Assembly: GCA_016223165.1 (NCBI GenBank)
Contig: JACRPO010000020.1
Location: 62,001-126,000 of the forward strand
Length of the DNA stretch: 64,000 bases
Origin: Burkholderiales bacterium
GTDB lineage: Bacteria > Pseudomonadota > Gammaproteobacteria > Burkholderiales > Burkholderiaceae_C
Direction: 5' to 3'
Part shown: one piece after another, positions 18,949 through 32,347 of the stretch
Position numbering within the stretch: position 1 is the stretch's first letter
Layout of the letters: every line of letters starts with the position of its first letter
Program-made: the position numbers and the translations under genes
Notes under the pieces: model-generated
The model's input: only the letters and a program-made list of their open reading frames with translations
Told to the model about the DNA's origin: nothing
The model's database searches: none

Positions 18949-20790
18949 TCACTTCGCGCGCAGGAGCCACTCGCCGATCTCGCGTGCCCGCAGCGGCTTT
19001 TGCAGGATGTCGAGCGTCACGTGCGGCGGCACCTCGAGGCCGGACGGATCGATCTCCCCGGTGACGATCGCCGCCGGCCGCGCGCCGTAGCGCGCCTCCA
19101 GGCGCTCGATGGCCTGCAGCCCGTTCTCCGCGCCCGCGAGCCGCCAGTCGGCCAGGACCGCGTCGGGGGTGAGCCCGGCTGCGTCGAGCTGGGCGATGGC
19201 CGCGGCGGCGTCTTCGGCGACGATCGGGCGGCACGCCCAGTCCCGCAGCAGCGTGCGCATGGCCTCGCCCACTTCGGCATCGTCGTCGATGACGACGACG
19301 ACGGTGCCACGCAGGCCCGCCAGCGGCGCGGCGGAAGGCAATGCGTCTTCGCCGGCGGGCGCGCCCGGCGGCTCGCAGCGCGCGAGGCCGACCGCGAACG
19401 TGCTGCCCTGGCCGGGGGTCGAAGTCACCTCGATCGTGTGGCCGAGCAGGTCGCACATGCGCTTGACGATGGCCAGCCCGAGCCCGATCCCCTGCCGGCG
19501 GTTGCGCGCCGGGTTGCGCACCTGGTAGTACTCCTCGAAGATGCGGCCGCGGTCCGCGGCGTCGATGCCGATGCCGGTGTCGCGCACGGTGATCAGCGCC
19601 TCGTGCCCGGCGGCCGCCGCCTGCACCTCGATGCTTCCCGCTTCGGTGTACTTGACCGCGTTGTCGAGCAGGTTGCGCAGCACGCGCTCGAGCATCGCCG
19701 GGTCGGATCGCACCCAGACGTCGGAGGTCGTGCAGTGAAATGCGAGCCCCTTGTCCTGCGCGAGGGGGCGGAATTCGTCTTCGAGGCGGCGCATCAGGGC
19801 GCGCAGCGAGACGGGCCTGGGTTCGGGCGTGAGGCTGCCGGCGTCCAGGCGCGACAGGTCGAGCAGCCCGGTGAAGAGGCGGCCCAGCGAATCCGCCGAG
19901 CGTGCGGCCTGCCGCAACGTGCCGCCGATCTTTGCATCGTCGGTCGAGTGCACGGCATGGTCGAGCAGCAGCGAGAGCGAGTGCAGCGGCTGGCGCAGGT
20001 CGTGGCTGGCGGCGGCGAGGAAGCGCGACTTGGCCAGGTTGGCCTCCTCGGCGCGCGCGCGGGCGGCCTGCGCTTCGGTCTCGCGTTGCTGCAGCCGCTG
20101 CGCCAGCTCTTCGTTCTCGAAGCCGGCGCGCAAGGCGCGCTCGAGCAGTTGCGAGCCGTCGCGGGCGAAGACGATGAGGTAGTAGAGGAAGAAGACGATC
20201 AGCCCGGCCACCGGCAGGCGCAACGGCATCTCCGACAGCACCCATGCCAGCGCCAGCGGCGCCAGGAAGCAGGTCGCCATGCCGTAGAAGGCCCTCGGCA
20301 CGGTCACCGAGATCGCGATGCCGGCTGCGCACCACGCGCAGAGCACCATGGTCATCATCGCCCACTCGAGCGGCGGCACGCGGAAGAAGACGAGGGACGC
20401 CGAGCCGGCGACCGCGCCGCTCGCGATGGCCAGCAGGGTCAGCCAGCGCAGCGCGGCGCCGATGCGCGCGCCGCCCGGAGGCCGCGCCAGCAGCGCGGCG
20501 CTCAGCAGCGCGCGCACGATCCATACGGCCACTGCCGCGCCGGCCCAGCCCCAGGCCACAGAGGCACCGGCGTGTGGCGCCATCATGTAGGCGATGAAAC
20601 CGGACACGAACATCACGCCCAGCGGCACCCGCACGACCTGGCGGTTGAACAGCCGCAGGCGTTCGGTGTCGATCGCGAGACGCGCCGACTCGACGCGGGG
20701 GGTGGCGAGCCCGGCCGGCTCGGCCGCCACGACCGCTCCAGTCGACAAGGGCGACAAGGGCGACAAGGGCGACAAGGGTGCGGTCGTCAC
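18949..20790 (-). CDS. Membrane hybrid histidine kinase with receiver domain
   Basis: 613-aa sensor kinase. The N-terminus has a (Pro-Leu-Ser)n tract (residues 5-16), followed by about six transmembrane helices between residues 52 and 210 with little periplasmic domain, and a coiled-coil linker. Then come HisKA with phospho-His263 in AASHDLRQPLHSL, HATPase_c (N box NLLDNAVKYTEAGS, G boxes DTGIGI and GIGLGLAIVKR), and a C-terminal receiver with Asp548 in LADWRLAG. It starts with GTG overlapping the oxidoreductase stop (GTGA). It is the third gene of an operon with a LuxR-type regulator, the likely phosphorylation target. The signal is unknown. Confidence 0.9.
   Translation of the reverse strand: MTTAPLSPLSPLSPLSTGAVVAAEPAGLATPRVESARLAIDTERLRLFNRQVVRVPLGVMFVSGFIAYMMAPHAGASVAWGWAGAAVAVWIVRALLSAALLARPPGGARIGAALRWLTLLAIASGAVAGSASLVFFRVPPLEWAMMTMVLCAWCAAGIAISVTVPRAFYGMATCFLAPLALAWVLSEMPLRLPVAGLIVFFLYYLIVFARDGSQLLERALRAGFENEELAQRLQQRETEAQAARARAEEANLAKSRFLAAASHDLRQPLHSLSLLLDHAVHSTDDAKIGGTLRQAARSADSLGRLFTGLLDLSRLDAGSLTPEPRPVSLRALMRRLEDEFRPLAQDKGLAFHCTTSDVWVRSDPAMLERVLRNLLDNAVKYTEAGSIEVQAAAAGHEALITVRDTGIGIDAADRGRIFEEYYQVRNPARNRRQGIGLGLAIVKRMCDLLGHTIEVTSTPGQGSTFAVGLARCEPPGAPAGEDALPSAAPLAGLRGTVVVVIDDDAEVGEAMRTLLRDWACRPIVAEDAAAAIAQLDAAGLTPDAVLADWRLAGAENGLQAIERLEARYGARPAAIVTGEIDPSGLEVPPHVTLDILQKPLRAREIGEWLLRAK
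20744..20779. repeat. Four 9-bp tandem units (GACAAGGGC)
   Basis: Four copies of a 9-bp unit, the last with one base change, lie inside the start of the histidine kinase gene and encode Leu-Ser-Pro repeats on the minus strand. The unit is a multiple of three, so copy changes would lengthen the N-terminus without a frameshift. Confidence 0.9.
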
Positions 20791-22825: not shown

Positions 22826-23125
22826 AAGCACCTCCAACGCGCCAGGGCTCGCGCACCGGTGCTGCGAGGCTAACGCAACGCGTGCGCGCAAGCGAGGCGC
22901 GGGCGCCTAAGCCGTCGGCCTATGCGCACCGCAGACCCGCTCATCCATCGCGACTACGACCTCGAACAGGCCGTGCGTGCAATGGCGCCCGGGCCTGCCG
23001 GCAGGAAGACTGCGCCCCATGCGATCGAGACCGGTTGCATCGGGCAGGCAGCGACCCTCGGGTGCCCCGCCAGCCGCCCGCCATCACGCCAGGGCACCTG
23101 TTCCAGGATCCCAGCGGAGGACGAA

Positions 23126-23626
23126 ATGAAGGCGAATCAGTTCACGATGACGATGGCGGCGGTGCTGGCGATGTTCGGCACGGCCCAGGCCAACCCCGGC
23201 TGCGAAACGCCGCTGACGCGCGCCCAGGTGGCGGCCGAGACCGTGGCCGCCCGCGACGACGGCCGCTTCCAGGCCATGACCGGCGAGGACAGCGGCTCGT
23301 TCTGGCTCTCGCGCCAGGCGACGGCGACGTCGCTGACGCGCGCCGAGGTCGTAGCGCAGATGCGCGAGGGCGGCGGGCAGGCCCGGGCGATGACCGGCGA
23401 GGACAGCGGCTCGTTCCAGCTCGCGCGCCAGACGACGCCGAGTGCACGCACGCGCGCCGTGGTGCTGGCCGAGGTGACGGAGGCGCGCCGCGCCGGTGAC
23501 CTCGCCGCGCTGACCGGCGAGGACAGCGGTTCGGTGCACCTGGCGCGCCAGGACGCCGGACGCGGCGACAGCGTGCTGTTCGCGTGCCGCGTGCCCGACG
23601 AGCGCATCGCCGCGCGCGTGCGCTAA
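23126..23626 (+). CDS. Exported protein with three TGEDSGS repeats (DUF4148-like)
   Basis: 166-aa secreted or periplasmic protein with a signal peptide ending near AQANPGC. The body is three repeats, residues 30-64, 70-102 and 108-142, each following the plan TRAxVxAxxxxARxxGxxxAMTGEDSGSxxLARQ. The repeat resembles the DUF4148 theme of Burkholderiales (Lys/Thr-Arg-Ala-x-Val ... Glu-Asp), but three copies in one protein and the nearly invariant TGEDSGS are distinctive. A GGAGG ribosome site at 23116-23120 fixes the start. Function unknown; such small proteins are often stress-induced. Confidence 0.75.
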   Translation: MKANQFTMTMAAVLAMFGTAQANPGCETPLTRAQVAAETVAARDDGRFQAMTGEDSGSFWLSRQATATSLTRAEVVAQMREGGGQARAMTGEDSGSFQLARQTTPSARTRAVVLAEVTEARRAGDLAALTGEDSGSVHLARQDAGRGDSVLFACRVPDERIAARVR

Positions 23627-24459: not shown

Positions 24460-25521
24460 ATGTCGAACGGCCCGATCGCGGGCTGGCCCGGGCTGTGGGC
24501 CGCCGCGTTGCATCAGGTGGCTCTGCGCCGGTCCGGCGGGTTCGGTGGGTCCGGCGGGTCCGGTGGGGGCCGCTCCGCCGGGCCCGGGCATGCGGCGGGC
24601 CCGCTCGCATCCGCGCCCGGCGAGCCCGGTGCGCACGGCGCGAACGGCGTGAACGGCGGCGATCATCTATCGAGCGGCGCCGTGGGCGCATGGCGTCGGC
24701 CGCCGCCGGGGCGGGACGACGAGAGCGCCGAACTCTTCGACCTCTACGAGCCGCTCGTGGCGCGCACGCCCTCGTCGCCGCCCTGGCTCATCGCGCACCT
24801 CGGCCAGAGCCTGGACGGCTTCATCGCCACGCACAACGGCGATTCGCGCTTCGTCACCGGGCCGCAGGACTTGGACCACATGCACCGGCTGCGCGCGCTG
24901 AGCGACGCGGTCATCGTCGGCGCCGGCACGGTGGTCGTCGACGACCCTTTGCTGACGACGCGGCGCGTGCCCGGCACGCACCCGACCCGGGTCGTGCTCG
25001 ACCCGATGCAGCGCGTGCCGGTCGCGGCGCGCGTGCTGCAGGACCGCGATGCGCCGACGCTGTGGCTGTGCGACGAGCGCTGGCACGACCCGACGCTGGC
25101 GCCGCGCGTGGCGGCGCGCGTGCTCGCCGTGCCGGGCCTGGCCGGCAGCGACGGCGTGTTCGACGCGCAGGTCGTGCGCCACGTGCTGGTGGCGCAGGGG
25201 CTGCGCGTGCTCTTCATCGAAGGCGGTGGCGTCACCGTCTCGCGCTTCCTGGCGCAGGGGCTGCTGGACCGCCTGCACCTGGCGCTGGCGCCGGTGCTGA
25301 TCGGCGAAGGCCGGCGCGGCGTGCGCCTGCCCGCCAGCAGCTGCCTGGCCGATTGCCTGCGCCCCGGCGGCCGCATCGTCCGCCTGGGCGGGGACGTGCT
25401 GTGGGACTTCGACCTCTCGCCCTCGCCCTCGGGCTCGGCCTCAGGCGCGGGCCGGCGGCACGGCGACGAGCTCGACGTGGCCGACGCGCAGGTGCGAGCG
25501 TTCGAGGGCGGCGGTGCGTAG
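24460..25521 (+). CDS. RibD C-terminal/DHFR-fold reductase
   Basis: 353-aa protein whose residues about 110-320 form a RibD-C (dihydrofolate-reductase-like) NADPH-dependent reductase. Motifs are LIAHLGQSLDGFIATHNGDS, SDAVIVGAGTVVVDDPLLTT, LFIEGGGVTVSRFLAQGLLD and LAPVLIGEGRRG. Relatives reduce pyrimidine ribitol or pterin intermediates. There is no deaminase domain, so it is not a full RibD. The first 100 residues are Gly/Ser-rich (GGFGGSGGSGGG) and low-complexity. It opens the unusual 24.4-32.3 kb cluster. Its last 27 codons overlap, on the opposite strand, the end of the methyltransferase gene. I infer a role in reducing a pterin-like intermediate; the substrate is not shown. Confidence 0.8.
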   Translation: MSNGPIAGWPGLWAAALHQVALRRSGGFGGSGGSGGGRSAGPGHAAGPLASAPGEPGAHGANGVNGGDHLSSGAVGAWRRPPPGRDDESAELFDLYEPLVARTPSSPPWLIAHLGQSLDGFIATHNGDSRFVTGPQDLDHMHRLRALSDAVIVGAGTVVVDDPLLTTRRVPGTHPTRVVLDPMQRVPVAARVLQDRDAPTLWLCDERWHDPTLAPRVAARVLAVPGLAGSDGVFDAQVVRHVLVAQGLRVLFIEGGGVTVSRFLAQGLLDRLHLALAPVLIGEGRRGVRLPASSCLADCLRPGGRIVRLGGDVLWDFDLSPSPSGSASGAGRRHGDELDVADAQVRAFEGGGA

Positions 25522-26352
25522 GCGGCGCCAGGCTTGCGTGCCAGGCGCGGCCTGCGGATCCTGCTCGAGCGCCGCCGCGGCCATGCCTGCGATCAACGCC
25601 GCCTGCAGCGGGCCCCCTTGCAGCAGCCAGTCGCTGCGCGCCGCCTCGACGGCATAGCCGGCATCGGCGAGCAACGCGCGCGCGACCTCCGGGGCCGCCG
25701 CACCCAGCGCCGGCCCGAAGCCCTTGTCGCGGCCCTGGTGGCGGGCGAACGACTGCGCCACGTCGGCGTCGCCGGGGTGTGCGGGAGCCCACTCGATGCG
25801 CCCGTCGACGGCGAGCGCGAAAGAGAGCCGCGCCGACACGCGCCGCGCGCGACCGATCAGCTCCGCGAGCCAGGCGTGCGAGACGAGGTCGATGAGCGCC
25901 GTCGCGCAGAGCAGGTCGGTCGCATCGAAGGGGAGGGTGTCGAGCCCCTGCGCGAGATCGAGGCGACGGCGTTCGATGCGGGCCGTGAAACCTGTGCCGG
26001 CGAGGTGCCAGGTGCCGGCGCGCGACTCGAACCGGTGCCCTTCGCGGCGCGCCCACGCCGCCATCGCGTCGGGCAGCGCCTGCAGCAGGGACTCGTCGTG
26101 GTCGCACAGGCGCCAATGCTGTTCGCCGCCCAGGCGAGGAGCGAGAAAGCGCAGCGAGGCACCGGTGCCGCAGCCGAGGTCCAGCACCTGCATCGGTGGC
26201 AGCTGCAGCGACGGTGATGGTGCGGCGCGCGCTTCGTCGCCGCGCAGCGCGGCGAGCCAGCGCTCCTCGCCGATCGCCGCGACCGCCGCCTCGCGCGCCA
26301 GCCGGTCGCTCGGCTCACGCAGCTGCAGCCAGGACGCGGCGAAGGGCTTCAT
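25441..26352 (-). CDS. Class I SAM-dependent methyltransferase
   Basis: 303-aa Rossmann-fold methyltransferase. Motif I is VLDLGCGTGASLRFLAPRLG (about residues 60-79), followed by the acidic LCDHDESLLQAL and a motif IV-like DLLCATALIDLVSHAWLAEL. The acceptor is unknown. The start ATG overlaps the stop of the upstream glycosyltransferase gene (ATGA, 26349-26352), so the two are coupled. The 3' end runs 81 bp into the convergent reductase gene. Its place between a glycosyltransferase and a reductase suggests methylation of the same small molecule; that is inference. Confidence 0.85.
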   Translation of the reverse strand: MKPFAASWLQLREPSDRLAREAAVAAIGEERWLAALRGDEARAAPSPSLQLPPMQVLDLGCGTGASLRFLAPRLGGEQHWRLCDHDESLLQALPDAMAAWARREGHRFESRAGTWHLAGTGFTARIERRRLDLAQGLDTLPFDATDLLCATALIDLVSHAWLAELIGRARRVSARLSFALAVDGRIEWAPAHPGDADVAQSFARHQGRDKGFGPALGAAAPEVARALLADAGYAVEAARSDWLLQGGPLQAALIAGMAAAALEQDPQAAPGTQAWRRLRTAALERSHLRVGHVELVAVPPARA

Positions 26353-27539
26353 GGCGCCGGCGCTGCGGCGACCGACTGCAGCACCTGTTCCCAACGCGCG
26401 CCTGCGGCCGCCCAGGAGGGCAGCCGCGCGCGCGCCGCGAGGGCGGCCTGCGCGAGCAGCGCCCGCCGTGCCGGCTCGGCCAGCAGCGGCGCGAGCGCCG
26501 CGCGCAGCGCCGCCGCATCGCCCGGCGGCACCAGCACGCCGGCACCACCGGCATCGCCGACACCGGCCGCATCGCGGACACCGGCGGCCTCGCCGACACC
26601 GCCCGCACCGCCACCGAGCAAGGACCGTGCGGCGCCGGTGTCGGTGCCGACCACCGGCAAGCCGTGCGCGAGCGCCTCGGCGAGCACCATGCCGTAGCCC
26701 TCGAAGAGCGACGGCAGCACGAAGAGGTCGGCGCGCGCGTAGTGCCCCGGCAGCGCCGTCGCCTCGGCGGCGCCATGCCAGTGCACGCGCTCGTCGAGGC
26801 CGAGCCTGTGTGCAGCGGCGCGCGCGGCCGCGGCGGTGGCCGGGTCCATGGTCAGGCTGCCGACGTTGTGCAGCACCCACGGCAGCTCGCGCAGCGGCGC
26901 CAGCGCCTCGAGCAGCACGAGATGACCCTTGCGCGCGGTGACCGAGGCGACGCACAGCAGCTGCACCGGGCCCTCCGCGGCGCGCCGCCGCAGCGGCAGC
27001 GCCGGCAGGTCGCAGCCGGGTTCGATGGTCGTGACGCGCGCCGTCGCCATCTCGAGGCGCTGCAGCAGGCGCGCCGTGGCCTCGCTGGTGACGACGACGT
27101 GGCGCGTCGCGGCCAGGGCGCGCCGTTCGTCGCGGATCAGCGCCGCGGCCTGCGCCGCGCCGAGGCCGGTCTCCAGGCCGAGCGGGTGATGCACCAGCGC
27201 CACCCAGCGCAGACGGCGCGCGTGGCGCATGGCCGTCTCGGGCAGGGCGCCGAAGGCGAGGCCATCGGCGATGACCGGCACATCGTCGGGCAATGCCGCC
27301 ACGGCGGCCTCGGCCTGCGCGAGGGTGGCGGCATCGGGCGCGGGCCAGGCGCCGGGCAGCGACAGCGCCTGGACCGGCCAGCCGCGGCCGCGCAGCTCCT
27401 GCACGACGCGGCGGTCGTAGCGGTAGCCGCCGCTCGGCGTATCGAGGTCGCCCGGCAGCAGGAGCACGCAGCGGTTCGCTGGCGCGCCTTCGCGCCGAAG
27501 CGCTCCGGTATTCGCCTTGGGAGCAGCCCTGCGGCTCAT
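26349..27539 (-). CDS. GT4-family glycosyltransferase with repetitive loop insertion
   Basis: 396-aa GT-B glycosyltransferase. The N-terminal half starts CVLLLPGDLDTPSGGYRYDR and includes WVALVHHPLGLETG. The C-terminal donor domain has VASVTARKGHLVLLEAL, HWHGAAEATALPGHYARADL and the GT4 EX7E-like SLFEGYGMVLAEALAHGLPV. Between the donor loop and VLVPPGDAAALRAAL sits an inserted Gly/Ala/Val/Asp repeat of about 20 residues coded by three 18-bp units. It starts 25 bp after the PTPS-like gene stop and overlaps the methyltransferase start. Sugar donor and acceptor are unknown; in this setting a pterin-like acceptor is plausible. Confidence 0.85.
   Translation of the reverse strand: MSRRAAPKANTGALRREGAPANRCVLLLPGDLDTPSGGYRYDRRVVQELRGRGWPVQALSLPGAWPAPDAATLAQAEAAVAALPDDVPVIADGLAFGALPETAMRHARRLRWVALVHHPLGLETGLGAAQAAALIRDERRALAATRHVVVTSEATARLLQRLEMATARVTTIEPGCDLPALPLRRRAAEGPVQLLCVASVTARKGHLVLLEALAPLRELPWVLHNVGSLTMDPATAAAARAAAHRLGLDERVHWHGAAEATALPGHYARADLFVLPSLFEGYGMVLAEALAHGLPVVGTDTGAARSLLGGGAGGVGEAAGVRDAAGVGDAGGAGVLVPPGDAAALRAALAPLLAEPARRALLAQAALAARARLPSWAAAGARWEQVLQSVAAAPAP
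26545..26598. repeat. Three 18-bp tandem units in the glycosyltransferase gene
   Basis: Units 26545-26562, 26563-26580 and 26581-26598 share the pattern CCGGC(A/C)..TCGC(C/G)GACA; a fourth copy (26599-26616) is decayed. On the minus strand they encode the (Gly-Val-x-Asp/Glu-Ala-Ala/Gly) repeats inserted in the donor domain. The unit keeps the frame. Confidence 0.8.
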
Positions 27540-27564
27540 GGATCGGCCGATTCGAGGTCAGCGG

Positions 27565-27984
27565 TCAGCGCAAGGCGGCCTCGTAGCTGGCCCAGGCCAC
27601 GTGCGACTCGTGCAGCGTGATGCGCAGGCCGTACAGGCCCTCCCGGCCGTCCAGGCCCGACGCGCCTGCGCCCAGCTCGCCGGCGGCGATGCGCGCCGCG
27701 AGGCGGTCGAAGATGACGCGGGCCATGTACTCCGTCGTCGTGTTGCGGCCGGCGAACGCGGGCTCCTCGTCCAGGTTGCGGAAGTTCAGTGCCTCGAGCA
27801 CCGACTTCAGCACCTGCGAGGCGAGGCCGATGTCGACCACCACGCCGTCGTCGTCGAGCTCGCGGCGCATGAAGGCGGCATCGACGACGTAGGTGGCGCC
27901 GTGCAGGCGCTGCGCCGGGCCGAAGACCGCGCCGGCGAAGCTGTGCGCAATCATGAAGTGGTCGCGGACGTTGACGGTGTACAT
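27565..27984 (-). CDS. PTPS/QueD-fold protein lacking canonical catalytic residues
   Basis: 139-aa member of the 6-pyruvoyl-tetrahydropterin / 6-carboxytetrahydropterin synthase superfamily. The fold signature is present: [10 protein letters not shown] (zinc-ligand His14), LHGATY (His28), VVDIG, and [12 protein letters not shown] with the substrate-anchoring Glu. Key residues differ from QueD/PTPS. The third zinc His of HGH is Ala30, the catalytic Cys four residues before HGH is Ala24, and the Asp-His pair of LDHxxLN reads Asn67-Phe68. It is therefore probably not a standard QueD, and no queC/E/F genes are near. It sits between an MDR dehydrogenase (85-bp gap) and a glycosyltransferase. I infer pterin-like substrate binding with altered chemistry. 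Confidence 0.85.
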
Positions 27985-28069
27985 GCGGGCGCCTGCTTTC
28001 GGTGGATCGTTGAGAAGTCGCTTGGGTGTCGGAGGTCCGGAGTTCGAACGACTCTCGACCTGCGAGCCA

Positions 28070-29065
28070 CTACGCCGCTGGATAGTCGATGCGCTGGCAC
28101 AGCGTGCCCGATGCACCGCCTGCGAGACGTGCCAGCACCTCGGGCAGCGCGGCGAAGGGCGCGCTGTCGGTGACGAGCGCATCGAGCACCGGGTCGGCGA
28201 GCAGCGAAAGCGCCAGCGCCATGCGCCGGCGGTGGCTCCAGCGGCTGCGCTGCGCCGCCGCGACATGGCCGACCTGCGTGCTCTTCAACGTCAGGCGGCG
28301 CGAGTGGAACGCTTCGCCCAGCGGCACCGGCACGGCCCGGCTGCCGTACCAGCTCATCTCGAGCACGGTGGCCTCGAAGGCGGCGAGGCGCAGCGCCGTC
28401 GCCAACCCCTCGGCGCTGCCGCTGGCGTGCAGCACAAGATCGGCTTCGGGCGTGGCGGCGGCCGGCTCGGCGAAGCGCGCGCCGAGCGCCTCGACGACCG
28501 CGCGCCGCTCGCGCCGCAGGTCGATCACCTCGACCTCCGTGCCGGGCAGGCGCGCGGCGAGCCAGGCCGCGAGCAGGCCGACGACGCCGGCACCGACGAC
28601 GGCGATGCGGTCGCCGACGCGCGGCGCCGCATCCCACAGCGCATTGACGGCGGTCTCCATGTTCGCCGCCAGCACGGCGCGCGCGGCGGGGACGTGCGCC
28701 GGCACCTCGTGCACGGCATCGGCCGGCACGACGTAGCGGCTCTGGTGCGGGTGCAGGCAGAAGACGGTGCGGCCGAGCCAATCCGCCGATCCGGCCGCGC
28801 CGGCCTCGACGATGCCGACGCTGCAGTAGCCGTACTTCACCGGCGCCGGAAAGTCGCCGGCCTGGAACGGCGCGCGCATGCGGGCGGCCTCGCCGGCCGG
28901 CACCTCGCCGCGAAAGACGAGCGCCTCGGTGCCGCGGCTGACGGCGCTATGCAGCGCGCGCACGAGCACCTCGCCTGGGCCTGGTGCATGCAGCGGCTCG
29001 CTGCGGATCTCGGCGCGGCCCGGTTCGACGAGCCAGCAGGCTTCGGCGTGGTCTGCGTTGCGCAT
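28070..29065 (-). CDS. Zinc-ligand-poor MDR-family dehydrogenase
   Basis: 331-aa medium-chain dehydrogenase/reductase. The GroES-like domain reads [19 protein letters not shown], where alcohol dehydrogenases have the zinc ligand Cys. The second metal-site motif GHE is replaced by [10 protein letters not shown]. The nucleotide-binding motif is [18 protein letters not shown], and the acidic IDLRRERR suggests NAD(H) preference. The SRGTE signature resembles BchC-like proteins, not classical zinc alcohol dehydrogenases. The gene heads the minus-strand run of PTPS-like, glycosyltransferase and methyltransferase genes. It starts only 30 bp from the divergent CDP-alcohol transferase fusion gene. Confidence 0.82.
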
Positions 29066-29095
29066 GGAGTAGGAGGGACCGCAGAATCATCGCAC

Positions 29096-31609
29096 GTGAG
29101 CACATCCCTTCCGACGACAGCGCGGCCCGCGCTGGTCCTGGCCCTGGCCCTGGCGCTGGCGCTGCATGCCGCGGCGGCAGTGGGCGTGGCCTTCGCCACG
29201 GGATGGGGCGCCGGCTACGTGGCCAAGGCCGTCGGCGCGATGAGCGTGGCGCTGTGGCTGGTGGCGCGCGGCTTCGCCCGAACCGCGTCAATGACGGCGG
29301 TGATGATGGCGGGGACGGCGGCGGAGAGGGCGGCGCAGACGGCGGCGGCAGCGGCCCCGATGCCGTCGCAGCTCGGGCCGGCCAACCGCGTCACGCTCGT
29401 GCGCCTGGCGCTCGCCATGCTGCTCGCCGCGGCGATCGGCGAGCTCGGCGACCCGGCGGCGGTGCCGCCGTGGCTGCCGTGGGCGATGGTGGGCGTGGTC
29501 AGCGTGGCGGCGCTGCTCGACGCCGTCGACGGCCCGCTGGCGCGCCGCTCGAAGGGGGCCACGGCCTTCGGCGCGCGCTTCGACATGGAGAGCGACGCCT
29601 GGTTCACGCTCGTGCTGAGCGCCCTCGTCTGGCAGTTCGACCGCGCCGGCGCATGGGTGCTGGCCTCGGGGCTGATGCGCTATGCCTTCGTCGTCGGCGC
29701 CTGGGGCTGGCCGTGGCTGGCGAAGCCGCTTGCGCCCAGCCGTCGCCGACAGGCCGTGTGCGTGGCGCAGATCGTGCTGCTGATCGTCGCGCTGGCACCG
29801 GTCGGCCCGCGCGAGTGGTCGACGGCGATCTCCCTCCTCGGCCTCGTGCTGCTGGCGGCCTCGTTCGCCGCGGACCTCCGGCAGCTCGCACGGGCGCATG
29901 CGGCACCGGCGCGCGAGCCCGTCGTCGGTCCGCGGGCCGTGGCACGGGCGGGCGGGCGGGATGCGCCGGGCTGGTGGGTGCGCTTCGTGGCGGCCGGCTT
30001 CGTGCTCAACACGCTCTTCACTTTCGAGAGCCGGCAGGGCGGCATCGGCGTGCACTGGAGTCCGCGCCTGAGCTTCGACCTCTGCCTGGGCGTGCTGGCG
30101 CTGATGGCCTGGGTGGCCTGGCGCGGGCTGCCGGGCCGGCGTGCGCTGCGGGGCCTGGCCGGGGCGTGCACGGCGCTGGCGCTCGTGCGCTATGTCGATG
30201 TCACCGTGCCCGCCTTCTTCGGCCGCCCGGTCAACCTGTACTGGGATGCGCCGCATGCGTGGCAGCTGCTGCGGCTCGCCTGGGCCACGTGGCCGGCGTG
30301 GCAGGTGGTGGGCGCGCTGGTCGCGGTGCTGTCGGCGCTGGGGGCCGTCATCACCGTCTCGCGCTGGGCGGTGGCAACGATGGCCGGCTGCCTGCTCGCG
30401 CGGCCGGCGCGGCCGTGGCTGGCGGCGGGTGGCGTGCTGCTCGGCGCGAGCTTCGCGGCCTATCCGTTCGTCGGCGTCGACACGCGCTGGTTCTTCTCGC
30501 TGCCGATCACGCCGACGCTCGTGCACCAGGCACGCCTGCTCGGCCAGGCGCTCTCGCGCGAGCGCACCGAGGCGCGGCTGACTCCGAGCCCCGACTTCGC
30601 GGGCAACCTCGGCGGCCTGCGCGGCGCCGACGTGCTGCTGCTGTTCGCCGAGTCGTACGGCGCCGCCACGCTCGACCGGCCGGCGCAGGCGGCGGCGCTG
30701 GCCGCGGCGCGCGAGCGCCTGGCGCAGGCGGTGCAGCGCGGCGGCCGCCAGGTGGTTTCTGCGCGCGTGCGCTCGCCCACCTTCGGCGGCGGCTCGTGGC
30801 TCGCGCATGCGGCATTGCTGGCCGGGGTCGATACGCAGGACCCGAGCGACTACGAGCTCCTGCTCACGACCCGGCGGCCGACGCTGGTGTCGCACTTCGC
30901 GCGCCACGGCTGGCGCACGGTGGGCTGGATGCCGGGCATGCAGCGGCCGTGGCCGGAAGTGGCCTTCTACGGCTTCGCGCGCTATGCCGACGCGCACGGC
31001 GTCGGCTACGACGGCCCGGCCTTTGGCTACTGGCGCATCCCGGACCAGGCGTCGATGGCGCTGCTGCATGCGCAGGAGCTGGCGCCGTCCGCGCCGCGCA
31101 CCCTTCGCGCGCCTCGCTTCGTCGTCTTCCCGACGCTCGAGACGCATGCGCCGTTCCACCCGCGCGCGCCGTACCAGAAGGAGTGGGAGCGGCTGCTCAC
31201 GCGCGTGCCCTACACGCCTGCGCAGCTGGCCGAAGCGCTCGCCCCCAAGGAGCCGCCCGGCGGCTGGGGGCCCGCCTATGCCAGCGCCGTCGCGCACACC
31301 TTCGAGTGGCTCGGCGACTACCTCGCCGAACGCGCCTCGCAAGACCTCGTCACGATCGTCATCGGCGACCACCAGCCGCTCGCGGCCGTGGCGGGCGCCG
31401 GTGCGTCATGGGACGTGCCCGTGCACGTCATCAGCCCCGACGAGGCGCTGCTGCAGCGCCTGCGCGAGGCGGGTTTCGTCTCAGGCCTCGTGCCCGGGCC
31501 GCGCACGCTCGGCGCCATGCACGAGCTCACCGGCCTCTTCGTGCGTGCCTTCGACCTGCCACGCGTAGATGTCGCCGGACCCGGCCCCCGCCGGCAGGGC
31601 AGCCCCTGA
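29096..31609 (+). CDS. Fusion of CDP-alcohol phosphatidyltransferase and sulfatase-like membrane domains
   Basis: 837-aa polytopic membrane protein. Residues about 92-260 form a CDP-alcohol phosphatidyltransferase with the complete motif Asp145-Gly-x2-Ala149-Arg150-x8-Gly159-x3-Asp163-x3-Asp167. Several transmembrane helices follow (about 300-480), then a C-terminal alkaline-phosphatase/sulfatase-superfamily domain. Metal-site candidates there are Glu519 in LLLFAESYG and Asp758-His759 in IVIGDHQP; Thr562 in SPTFGGGSW is the likely nucleophile, as in LtaS/phosphoethanolamine transferases. It could make a phospho-alcohol lipid and transfer or hydrolyse its head group. The start is GTG with AGGAGGG 18 bp upstream, a long spacing. 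The 3' end overlaps the convergent fkbM-like gene by 129 bp. Confidence 0.82.
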   Translation: MSTSLPTTARPALVLALALALALHAAAAVGVAFATGWGAGYVAKAVGAMSVALWLVARGFARTASMTAVMMAGTAAERAAQTAAAAAPMPSQLGPANRVTLVRLALAMLLAAAIGELGDPAAVPPWLPWAMVGVVSVAALLDAVDGPLARRSKGATAFGARFDMESDAWFTLVLSALVWQFDRAGAWVLASGLMRYAFVVGAWGWPWLAKPLAPSRRRQAVCVAQIVLLIVALAPVGPREWSTAISLLGLVLLAASFAADLRQLARAHAAPAREPVVGPRAVARAGGRDAPGWWVRFVAAGFVLNTLFTFESRQGGIGVHWSPRLSFDLCLGVLALMAWVAWRGLPGRRALRGLAGACTALALVRYVDVTVPAFFGRPVNLYWDAPHAWQLLRLAWATWPAWQVVGALVAVLSALGAVITVSRWAVATMAGCLLARPARPWLAAGGVLLGASFAAYPFVGVDTRWFFSLPITPTLVHQARLLGQALSRERTEARLTPSPDFAGNLGGLRGADVLLLFAESYGAATLDRPAQAAALAAARERLAQAVQRGGRQVVSARVRSPTFGGGSWLAHAALLAGVDTQDPSDYELLLTTRRPTLVSHFARHGWRTVGWMPGMQRPWPEVAFYGFARYADAHGVGYDGPAFGYWRIPDQASMALLHAQELAPSAPRTLRAPRFVVFPTLETHAPFHPRAPYQKEWERLLTRVPYTPAQLAEALAPKEPPGGWGPAYASAVAHTFEWLGDYLAERASQDLVTIVIGDHQPLAAVAGAGASWDVPVHVISPDEALLQRLREAGFVSGLVPGPRTLGAMHELTGLFVRAFDLPRVDVAGPGPRRQGSP

Positions 31610-32347
31610 GGCCACCCAGCGGCGCATCTCGTCGGCGCCCTGCGCGCGCGGCTGCAGCCACGCGAAGCGCTCGCCGGCGCAGGCACGGTAGCGGTAGCGG
31701 CCGAGCGCCTCCAGGCGATCGATGCAGGCCAGCGTCGCTTCGGGCAGCGCGGCGATGTACTCGAACGACAGCGCCGGCAGCGGCTGCGTCAGGCCGTCGA
31801 GCACCGCGCGCTCGAAGCCCTCGACGTCGATCTTCACGAAGTGCGGCCGGCCGTGGTGCGCGATCAGCGCGTCGAGCGTCGTCACCGGCACGCGCAGGCT
31901 GCCGGTCCAGCGCACGCGGCGAAAGGCGGGCGTCGCGCCGACGCGTCGGGCCCAGTCGGCCGACAAGGTGGCGACGGTGGGCGTGCGCGGGCTCACGAGC
32001 AGCTCGGCCTCGCCCTCGGCGGCGCCGAGGGCGAGCGGCAGCACGGTCACCGCGTCGTCATGCGCGAAGAGCCGATGCAGCACGCGCAGGCAGTCGGGCT
32101 GCGGCTCCACCGCCACCACGCGCGCGCCCAGCCGCCGCCAGGCCAGCGTGCGGTTGCCGACATGCGCGCCGATGTCGAAAGCGAGCCCGCCGCGCGGCAC
32201 GAGCGGCCGGTAGAACGCGAGCAGCCGCGCGCGACGCCCGGGGATGCCGTGGTAGATCCACAGCGAACGCAGCAGCCCGAGGGCTCGGCTCACTCGGCTC
32301 ACTTGGTTCACACGGTTCACTCGGTTCACGCAGTTCAGCACAGACAT
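31481..32347 (-). CDS. FkbM-family SAM methyltransferase
   Basis: 288-aa FkbM-type O-methyltransferase. The SAM motif is AFDIGAHVGNRTLAWRRLG, followed by VVAVEPQPDCLRVL and the FkbM hallmark HFVKIDVEGFERAVLDGL. The protein would normally end near SGDIYA, but the frame runs on for about 27 codons (WQVEGTHEEAGELVHGAERA...) antisense to the conserved end of the fusion gene. The N-terminus contains a (Val-Asn/Ser-Arg)n repeat from six 9-bp DNA units. The substrate is unknown; FkbM enzymes often methylate sugars in polysaccharides or natural products. Confidence 0.87.
   Translation of the reverse strand: MSVLNCVNRVNRVNQVSRVSRALGLLRSLWIYHGIPGRRARLLAFYRPLVPRGGLAFDIGAHVGNRTLAWRRLGARVVAVEPQPDCLRVLHRLFAHDDAVTVLPLALGAAEGEAELLVSPRTPTVATLSADWARRVGATPAFRRVRWTGSLRVPVTTLDALIAHHGRPHFVKIDVEGFERAVLDGLTQPLPALSFEYIAALPEATLACIDRLEALGRYRYRACAGERFAWLQPRAQGADEMRRWVASGAALPAGAGSGDIYAWQVEGTHEEAGELVHGAERARPGHEA
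32286..32339. repeat. Six 9-bp tandem units at the fkbM-like 5' end
   Basis: Degenerate copies of CGGTTCACT/CGGCTCACT run head to tail from 32286 to 32339 and encode the Val-Asn-Arg/Val-Ser-Arg tripeptides of the methyltransferase N-terminus. The 9-bp unit keeps the frame. Confidence 0.85.

Follow-up and report, generated by a model that had tools for sequence, protein, structure and literature searches.

A cross-phylum gene cassette around a PTPS-fold protein that probably makes a pterin-like molecule

What do neighbouring genes for a PTPS-fold protein, a RibD-type reductase, a dehydrogenase, a glycosyltransferase, two methyltransferases and a phosphatidyltransferase make, and do they belong together at all? 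The question is raised by an island of seven genes (positions 24460-32347) in a 64,000-nucleotide stretch of a Burkholderiales bacterium (GCA_016223165.1, JACRPO010000020.1, 62,001-126,000 of the forward strand), which is called the window here at its full length. The genes are a real biosynthetic cassette, conserved as a unit across distant phyla, and not a chance neighbourhood. This cassette probably converts an early intermediate of vitamin B2 synthesis into a pterin-like molecule that carries a sugar and a methyl group and is associated with the cell envelope.

Conservation of the cassette

All seven genes are intact open reading frames at the following positions; the short names are used below.

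24460..25521, + strand: RibD_C, a stand-alone RibD C-terminal (DHFR-like) reductase without deaminase domain (Pfam RibD_C 124 bits, above cut-off)
25441..26352, - strand: MT, a class I S-adenosylmethionine methyltransferase (Methyltransf_25 26 bits, just under the cut-off of 27)
26349..27539, - strand: GT4, a glycosyltransferase, ATGA-coupled to MT (Pfam Glyco_trans_1_4 88 bits, above cut-off)
27565..27984, - strand: PTPS-fold protein of the SCO6650 family (Pfam PTPS 86 bits, above cut-off)
28070..29065, - strand: MDR, a zinc-poor, BchC-like dehydrogenase (AlaDh_PNT_C 30 bits and NAD_binding_8 24 bits, both passing)
29096..31609, + strand: CDP-OH, a CDP-alcohol phosphatidyltransferase fused to a sulfatase-like domain (CDP-OH_P_transf 48 bits, above cut-off; the GTG start at 29096 is our choice)
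31481..32347, - strand: FkbM, an accessory FkbM-type methyltransferase (Methyltransf_21 66 bits, above cut-off; fkbM_fam 96 bits)

The GT4 and MT genes overlap by 4 nucleotides (ATGA), while the 3' ends of RibD_C and MT run into each other over 81 nucleotides, and those of the CDP-OH fusion and FkbM over 129 nucleotides. The domain set, the ATGA coupling and the interlocked gene ends described in the original prediction were thereby confirmed from the open reading frames, Pfam and these overlaps.

A scan of named genomes yielded at least 575 relatives; the 80 best, and hence nearest, were taken. Adding the window and five near-genome loci gave 86 loci, and 16 genomes of a class survey raised the set to 102. 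Family profiles were built on the best 80 loci and six earlier loci, and a family was scored as present when it matched anywhere in the fetched stretch. The best 80 relatives came from Beta-, Gamma- and Alphaproteobacteria, Streptomyces, Micromonospora, Actinoplanes, other actinobacteria and one acidobacterium. The original prediction had left itself dependent on co-conservation, and the genes were indeed found together: the run MDR, PTPS, GT4, MT, all on one strand, was unbroken in 95 of 102 loci (81/86 plus 14/16 class-survey genomes), with a rearranged order in L087. An oppositely oriented CDP-OH gene preceded this run in 69/86 loci, and often an LPG-synthase-TM gene (LPG-TM), a reversed RibD_C, a gene for GTP cyclohydrolase II (GCH II) and a reversed creatininase-family gene followed.

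Across the 102 loci, MDR and GT4 were present in 101 each, MT in 98, CDP-OH in 87, RibD_C in 72, LPG-TM in 63, GCH II in 57, creatininase in 44 and YceI in 27. The sulfatase-like part (30 loci) and FkbM (23 loci) are optional. When the set was thinned to 60 loci with less than 85% PTPS identity, MDR and GT4 each remained in 59, MT in 56, CDP-OH and RibD_C each in 48, GCH II in only 23 and creatininase in 20. Open reading frames that flank seven reference loci and belong to none of the named families recurred in no more than 14 of 84 loci, not counting antisense shadows of genes in the cluster.

The distribution of the cassette is patchy at close range. The PTPS-like protein was matched in 7 of 100 near genomes (own included), comprising strong matches in 5/60 genomes of the same genus (own included), a weak match in G041, which had no other cluster genes, and a match in another genome of the order, whose locus (L013) reads RibD_C-MDR-PTPS-GT4-MT. 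Three of the four other same-genus loci held all seven genes together, and the fourth lay at a contig end. In the class survey, 17/369 genomes matched (own included); PTPS was followed by GT4 in 16/16 of the others and the four-gene run was complete in 14/16, with RibD_C and CDP-OH each present in 13/16. Three loci of low similarity (L132, L133 and L134) came from one family of ~1-Mb genomes with 28-31% GC, and retained the order reversed CDP-OH, MDR, PTPS, GT4, MT, LPG-TM, reversed RibD_C; of the two RibD_C genes in one of these genomes (G241), one belongs to the cluster. Since the order is kept from Streptomyces to these small AT-rich genomes of the window's class, the product is probably useful. 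In a tree of MDR, PTPS and GT4 from 100 loci (quick method, SH-aLRT), the 34 actinobacterial loci grouped together, and the window grouped with L011 of the same genus and L020 (Rubrivivax).

In L132, YceI, O-methyltransferase and UPF0176/rhodanese genes come after CDP-OH, and YceI is likewise found there in L133 and L134. A Pfam scan of nine L132 genes and one L134 gene revealed no photolyase, no other search being aimed at one.

Seven open reading frames flanking the island in the window were scanned, among them genes for a sensor kinase, a response regulator, a beta-oxidation protein, an M20 peptidase and a hydrolase. As these are unrelated, the island seems to end at the bounds given above. 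Elsewhere in the window, a DUF4148 protein (22922-23626) has a threefold internal repeat around TGEDSGSF/V, and several proteins contain short in-frame low-complexity repeats, at 20743-20775 (LSPLSPLSP), 24535-24567 (GGSGGSGG), 26535-26591 (AAGVRDAAGVGDAGG) and 32285-32329 (VNRVNRVNQVSRVSR).

The PTPS-fold protein and its partner enzymes

The PTPS-fold protein belongs to the family of SCO6650 from Streptomyces coelicolor (PDB 3D7J) by both sequence and fold: the family profile matched 3D7J with 236 bits, and the structural model (pLDDT 92) aligned with it at TM scores of 0.91/0.94 and 65% identity. The PDB record covers this one protein; the cross-phylum cassette is added here. A T-fold PTPS domain was supported by the Pfam match as well as by matches of the model to PTPS structures. 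In contrast, the NCBIfam QueD model gave 42.6 bits against a cut-off of 89.25, and queC, queE and queF were absent from the recurrent neighbours identified, no dedicated search for their linkage being made. Assignment to queuosine synthesis was rejected on this score and on the recurrent neighbours seen.

Profile alignment with the PTPS of Caenorhabditis elegans (2g64) placed the Ala of GPAQ at the catalytic Cys, HGA at HGH, and N-Y/F at the DH of DHRNLD. The claim of an altered PTPS was thus borne out. Among 115 PTPS-like sequences, the position of the catalytic Cys was Ala (Ala24) in 115/115, and that of the third zinc His was Ala in 104 and Thr in one, His being kept only in 10 sequences of a divergent actinobacterial group (L199-L208, see below). 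His14, His28, Glu85 and Glu126 were invariant in 115/115, and the kept residues include those that hold the 2-amino-4-oxo ring in PTPS proteins. Judging from the alignment, the catalytic Cys and His are gone from the family, as is one zinc ligand except in L199-L208, which sets it apart from PTPS, PTPS-III, QueD and QueD2, all of the same T-fold. With three zinc His and no catalytic Cys, the L199-L208 proteins appear to bridge the PTPS enzymes and the main group, whichever the direction of change. SCO6650 itself reportedly lacks zinc and PTPS activity, according to the Bandarian group. In the window's own genome (G000) there was no PTPS match besides that of the cluster.

RibD_C is the sole Pfam family in the window's reductase, which is therefore not a bifunctional RibD (deaminase plus reductase); with TIGR00227 it scored 122 bits against a cut-off of 150, remaining below equivalog cut-offs though the RibD_C fold is present. 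The best solved relatives of the family profile were 6p8c, a 2,5-diamino-6-ribosylamino-pyrimidinone 5'-phosphate reductase, and the related 2azn, with weaker matches to structures named dihydrofolate reductase. Cluster RibD_C proteins fell into two unlike sets, with 25-29% and 42-57% identity to that of the window, and the window's genome holds three further RibD_C genes outside the island, one near a GCH II gene on contig 5. For the MDR protein, a zinc-type domain was not supported (ADH_zinc_N 24 bits, cut-off 31.8), and bchC (TIGR01202) scored 48 bits, far under its cut-off of 291. It carries SRGTE and KYGY at the positions of the Cys and His motifs of zinc MDRs, and thus lacks the zinc ligands of these enzymes.

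The CDP-OH protein contains the complete motif of CDP-alcohol phosphatidyltransferases, DxxDGxxAR-x8-GxxxDxxxD, and is assigned to that family. For its predicted sulfatase-like part, Pfam found no sulfatase in the fused protein itself, and the label is used because its C-terminal half is homologous to an L053 protein that matches PF00884 (35 bits). In the same-genus loci L009 and L010 a YceI gene sits between separate CDP-OH and sulfatase-like genes, whereas the window fusion joins both halves without YceI. The fusion is a local variant of separate genes, and probably arose by gene loss with fusion. Of the 27 loci with YceI, 23 have it on the strand of CDP-OH and within 600 nucleotides of that gene (exceptions L070, L084, L122 and L123). 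Members of the YceI family bind amphiphilic lipids.

Riboflavin-branch enzymes and FolB in relatives

GCH II, a creatininase-family hydrolase and YceI, all missing from the window's island, are added in relatives. In a tree that combined nine cluster GCH II proteins and their counterparts elsewhere in the same genomes, the cluster enzymes formed three groups, namely Streptomyces/Saccharopolyspora (support 89/96, not starred), Proteobacteria with the acidobacterium (100/99), and Micromonosporaceae (98/94), the last interspersed with paralogues from outside the clusters. Given these three groups, one of them with paralogues, and the two unlike sets of RibD_C, cluster enzymes of the same function seem, from their sequences, to have been recruited more than once. 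The Streptomyces genome G467 (L159, L171) has a second GCH II-RibD_C pair, divergently placed, outside the cluster (G467:C19:24610-26520), and this extra GCH II groups with those inside Micromonosporaceae clusters.

Many cluster GCH II proteins depart from the canonical enzyme at one or other of two sites. Met stands for the switch Tyr in Streptomyces and Gln in Saccharopolyspora, and the Proteobacteria and the acidobacterium have Ala or Ser for the Glu of HSECLTGD. When a creatininase-family gene lay in the same locus, 42/42 GCH II proteins were altered at one of these sites; without a linked creatininase, 13/15 were canonical at both, the exceptions being L122 and L123. No creatininase match was found in G471 or G472, both with canonical-type GCH II. 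A creatininase elsewhere in G357 could account for L123; G452 has none, leaving L122 unexplained. A stricter rule, equating a Met switch with creatininase, failed, as the proteobacterial and acidobacterial clusters have Tyr together with creatininase. Counting on from PTPS, the fifth gene in many Streptomyces loci codes for GCH II, which by numbering fits SCO6655, an enzyme said by the Bandarian group to make a formylated intermediate because of Met at the Tyr switch. Four linked creatininases scored 105-135 bits with the MftE model, under its cut-off of 172 and better than with ArfB (see below). The formylated GCH II intermediate is deformylated by BrbF, a creatininase-family protein (PMC9478397).

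A phylum survey around a Streptomyces matched 24/396 genomes (that Streptomyces included), 13 of which were fetched. L209 and L210 had the main-form cassette, L209 without RibD_C within the stretch, and L198 had MDR, PTPS and GT4. The remaining ten (L199-L208) all shared one directional run of RibD_C, MDR, PTPS, GT4 and then another methyltransferase; in L205 this run is headed by GCH II, giving GCH II, RibD_C, MDR, PTPS, GT4, MT, which is the order of the steps proposed below. In 10/10 of this group, a FolB-family gene and a PlsC-type acyltransferase gene adjoin the cassette on the opposite strand. Both FolB proteins tested passed the folB equivalog (dihydroneopterin aldolase) cut-off, and the adjoining gene was the sole FolB match in 9/10 of these genomes. 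No FolB (PF02152) match was found in the window's own genome.

Predicted pathway, alternatives and meaning

Considering these gene contents, we tentatively favour a cassette that branches off early in riboflavin synthesis and leads through a dihydropterin to a glycosylated, methylated, phospholipid-linked product. GCH II, in trans in the window genome and in the cluster in many relatives, would yield a diaminopyrimidine ribosyl phosphate; where GCH II is altered, we propose that the linked creatininase-family protein acts as a formamidase and removes the formyl group. The stand-alone RibD_C would then reduce ribosyl to ribityl, giving 2,5-diamino-6-ribitylamino-4-pyrimidinone 5'-phosphate, and for want of a deaminase the ring would retain its 2-amino-4-oxo (pterin-type) edge. 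The chemistry of GCH II and RibD_C is that of known families, and that assigned to MDR and PTPS is our own proposal. MDR may oxidise a side-chain alcohol, most simply the C2'-OH (a guess from chemistry), to a ketone of the same kind as GTP cyclohydrolase I forms via an Amadori rearrangement. The PTPS-fold protein could bind this ketone and close the ring onto the 5-amino group, its pocket guiding closure without catalytic residues, to produce a dihydropterin without GTP cyclohydrolase I. GT4 would add a sugar and MT a methyl group, in whichever order, and the CDP-alcohol enzyme may join the product to a phospholipid; an envelope lipid is suggested by CDP-OH and, in some relatives, by YceI or an acyltransferase. 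The methylated, glycosylated, pterin-like and lipid-associated product of the original prediction thus remains the best guess. Because relatives show GCH II and RibD_C without deaminase, its precursor is likelier to be a diaminopyrimidine of the riboflavin branch than to come from GTP cyclohydrolase I. The more specific proposal, a second pterin route without GTP cyclohydrolase I in which GCH II, RibD_C, MDR and a metal-free PTPS-fold cyclase lead to a lipid-attached envelope cofactor, is unlikely as a whole.

The main pathway is favoured by the conserved gene order, the apparent repeated recruitment of GCH II and RibD_C, the altered GCH II sites that go with a linked creatininase, the activity of BrbF, the invariant Glu85 and Glu126, and the genes for FolB beside the divergent cassettes and YceI near CDP-OH. 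Several observations weigh against this pathway, whose product and activities are predictions. The PTPS-like protein is without its catalytic residues, and a route in which RibD_C first reduces and MDR then oxidises is chemically roundabout. GCH II and creatininase are missing from the window's island, their own-genome copies being on other contigs, and GCH II was not within the fetched stretch in 45/102 loci, nor RibD_C in 30/102, partly through contig ends. The two-site GCH II rule was formed after the data, covers about three lineages and is broken by L122 and L123. As ArfB, the four linked creatininases were rejected, with 20-39 bits or nothing against a cut-off of 180. YceI was not found in 75/102 loci, and main-form clusters showed no FolB among the recurrent genes identified. 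In the divergent actinobacteria, PHP, AlaX-like and DUF192 genes are also kept in 8/10 loci, and the link with FolB may therefore be plain synteny.

In the best-surviving alternative no pterin ring is formed: an open 2,5-diamino-pyrimidine (ribityl or formylamino) itself receives the sugar, the methyl group and the anchor, and the PTPS-fold protein does no more than bind or carry it. An open pyrimidine is what GCH II, creatininase and RibD_C would deliver, and it suits a PTPS-like protein with Ala for Cys in every sequence and no third zinc His in 105/115. A dehydrogenase in 101/102 loci and FolB beside the divergent actinobacterial cassettes argue against it, and we regard this alternative as rather doubtful. 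Somewhat less probable is a cassette that decorates an ordinary GTP cyclohydrolase I pterin, as for the tetrahydrobiopterin glycosides of cyanobacteria, with RibD_C as a dihydropterin reductase. A GT4 gene adjoins a PTPS homologue here, a pairing shared with the cyanobacterial tetrahydrobiopterin glucosyltransferase, and RibD_C has a DHFR-like fold with weak matches to named dihydrofolate reductases. However, the recurrent cyclohydrolase is GCH II (57/102 loci), probably recruited more than once, and the solved structures closest to RibD_C are those of pyrimidinone phosphate reductases. The cyanobacterial glycosides start from GTP cyclohydrolase I and an active PTPS, whereas the cassette has GCH II, RibD_C, MDR and CDP-OH.

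A lumazine, flavin or deazaflavin analogue is improbable. GCH II and RibD_C are shared with riboflavin synthesis, and many clusters combine GCH II with RibD_C and a creatininase-family hydrolase, as does the riboflavin and archaeal route (RibA, BrbF or ArfB, RibD or ArfC); the cassette differs in a window RibD_C without deaminase, in that the recurrent families identified include neither lumazine synthase nor riboflavin synthase, and in its additional sugar, methyl and lipid enzymes. A mere duplication of riboflavin genes was rejected on the same absences. That the genes are chance neighbours, or that PTPS serves queuosine synthesis, fits the patchy occurrence within the genus and is otherwise barely credible given the same order across phyla, the score under the QueD cut-off and the unrelated flanking genes.

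Parts of the system are known already (3D7J, BrbF and GCH II variants). In the open-licence literature we met no paper on the whole cluster, nor the cross-phylum cassette, its link to CDP-OH, YceI and FolB, or the pathway order, which is weak evidence of absence. The pathway is directly testable, since the cultivated genera Streptomyces, Halomonas and Variovorax carry the cassette. If true, it would provide a riboflavin-branch entry to pterin-like molecules, which in the actinobacterial group with adjoining FolB might even feed folate, as well as a role for the orphan solved structure 3D7J, and it would suggest a new class of lipid-linked cofactor.

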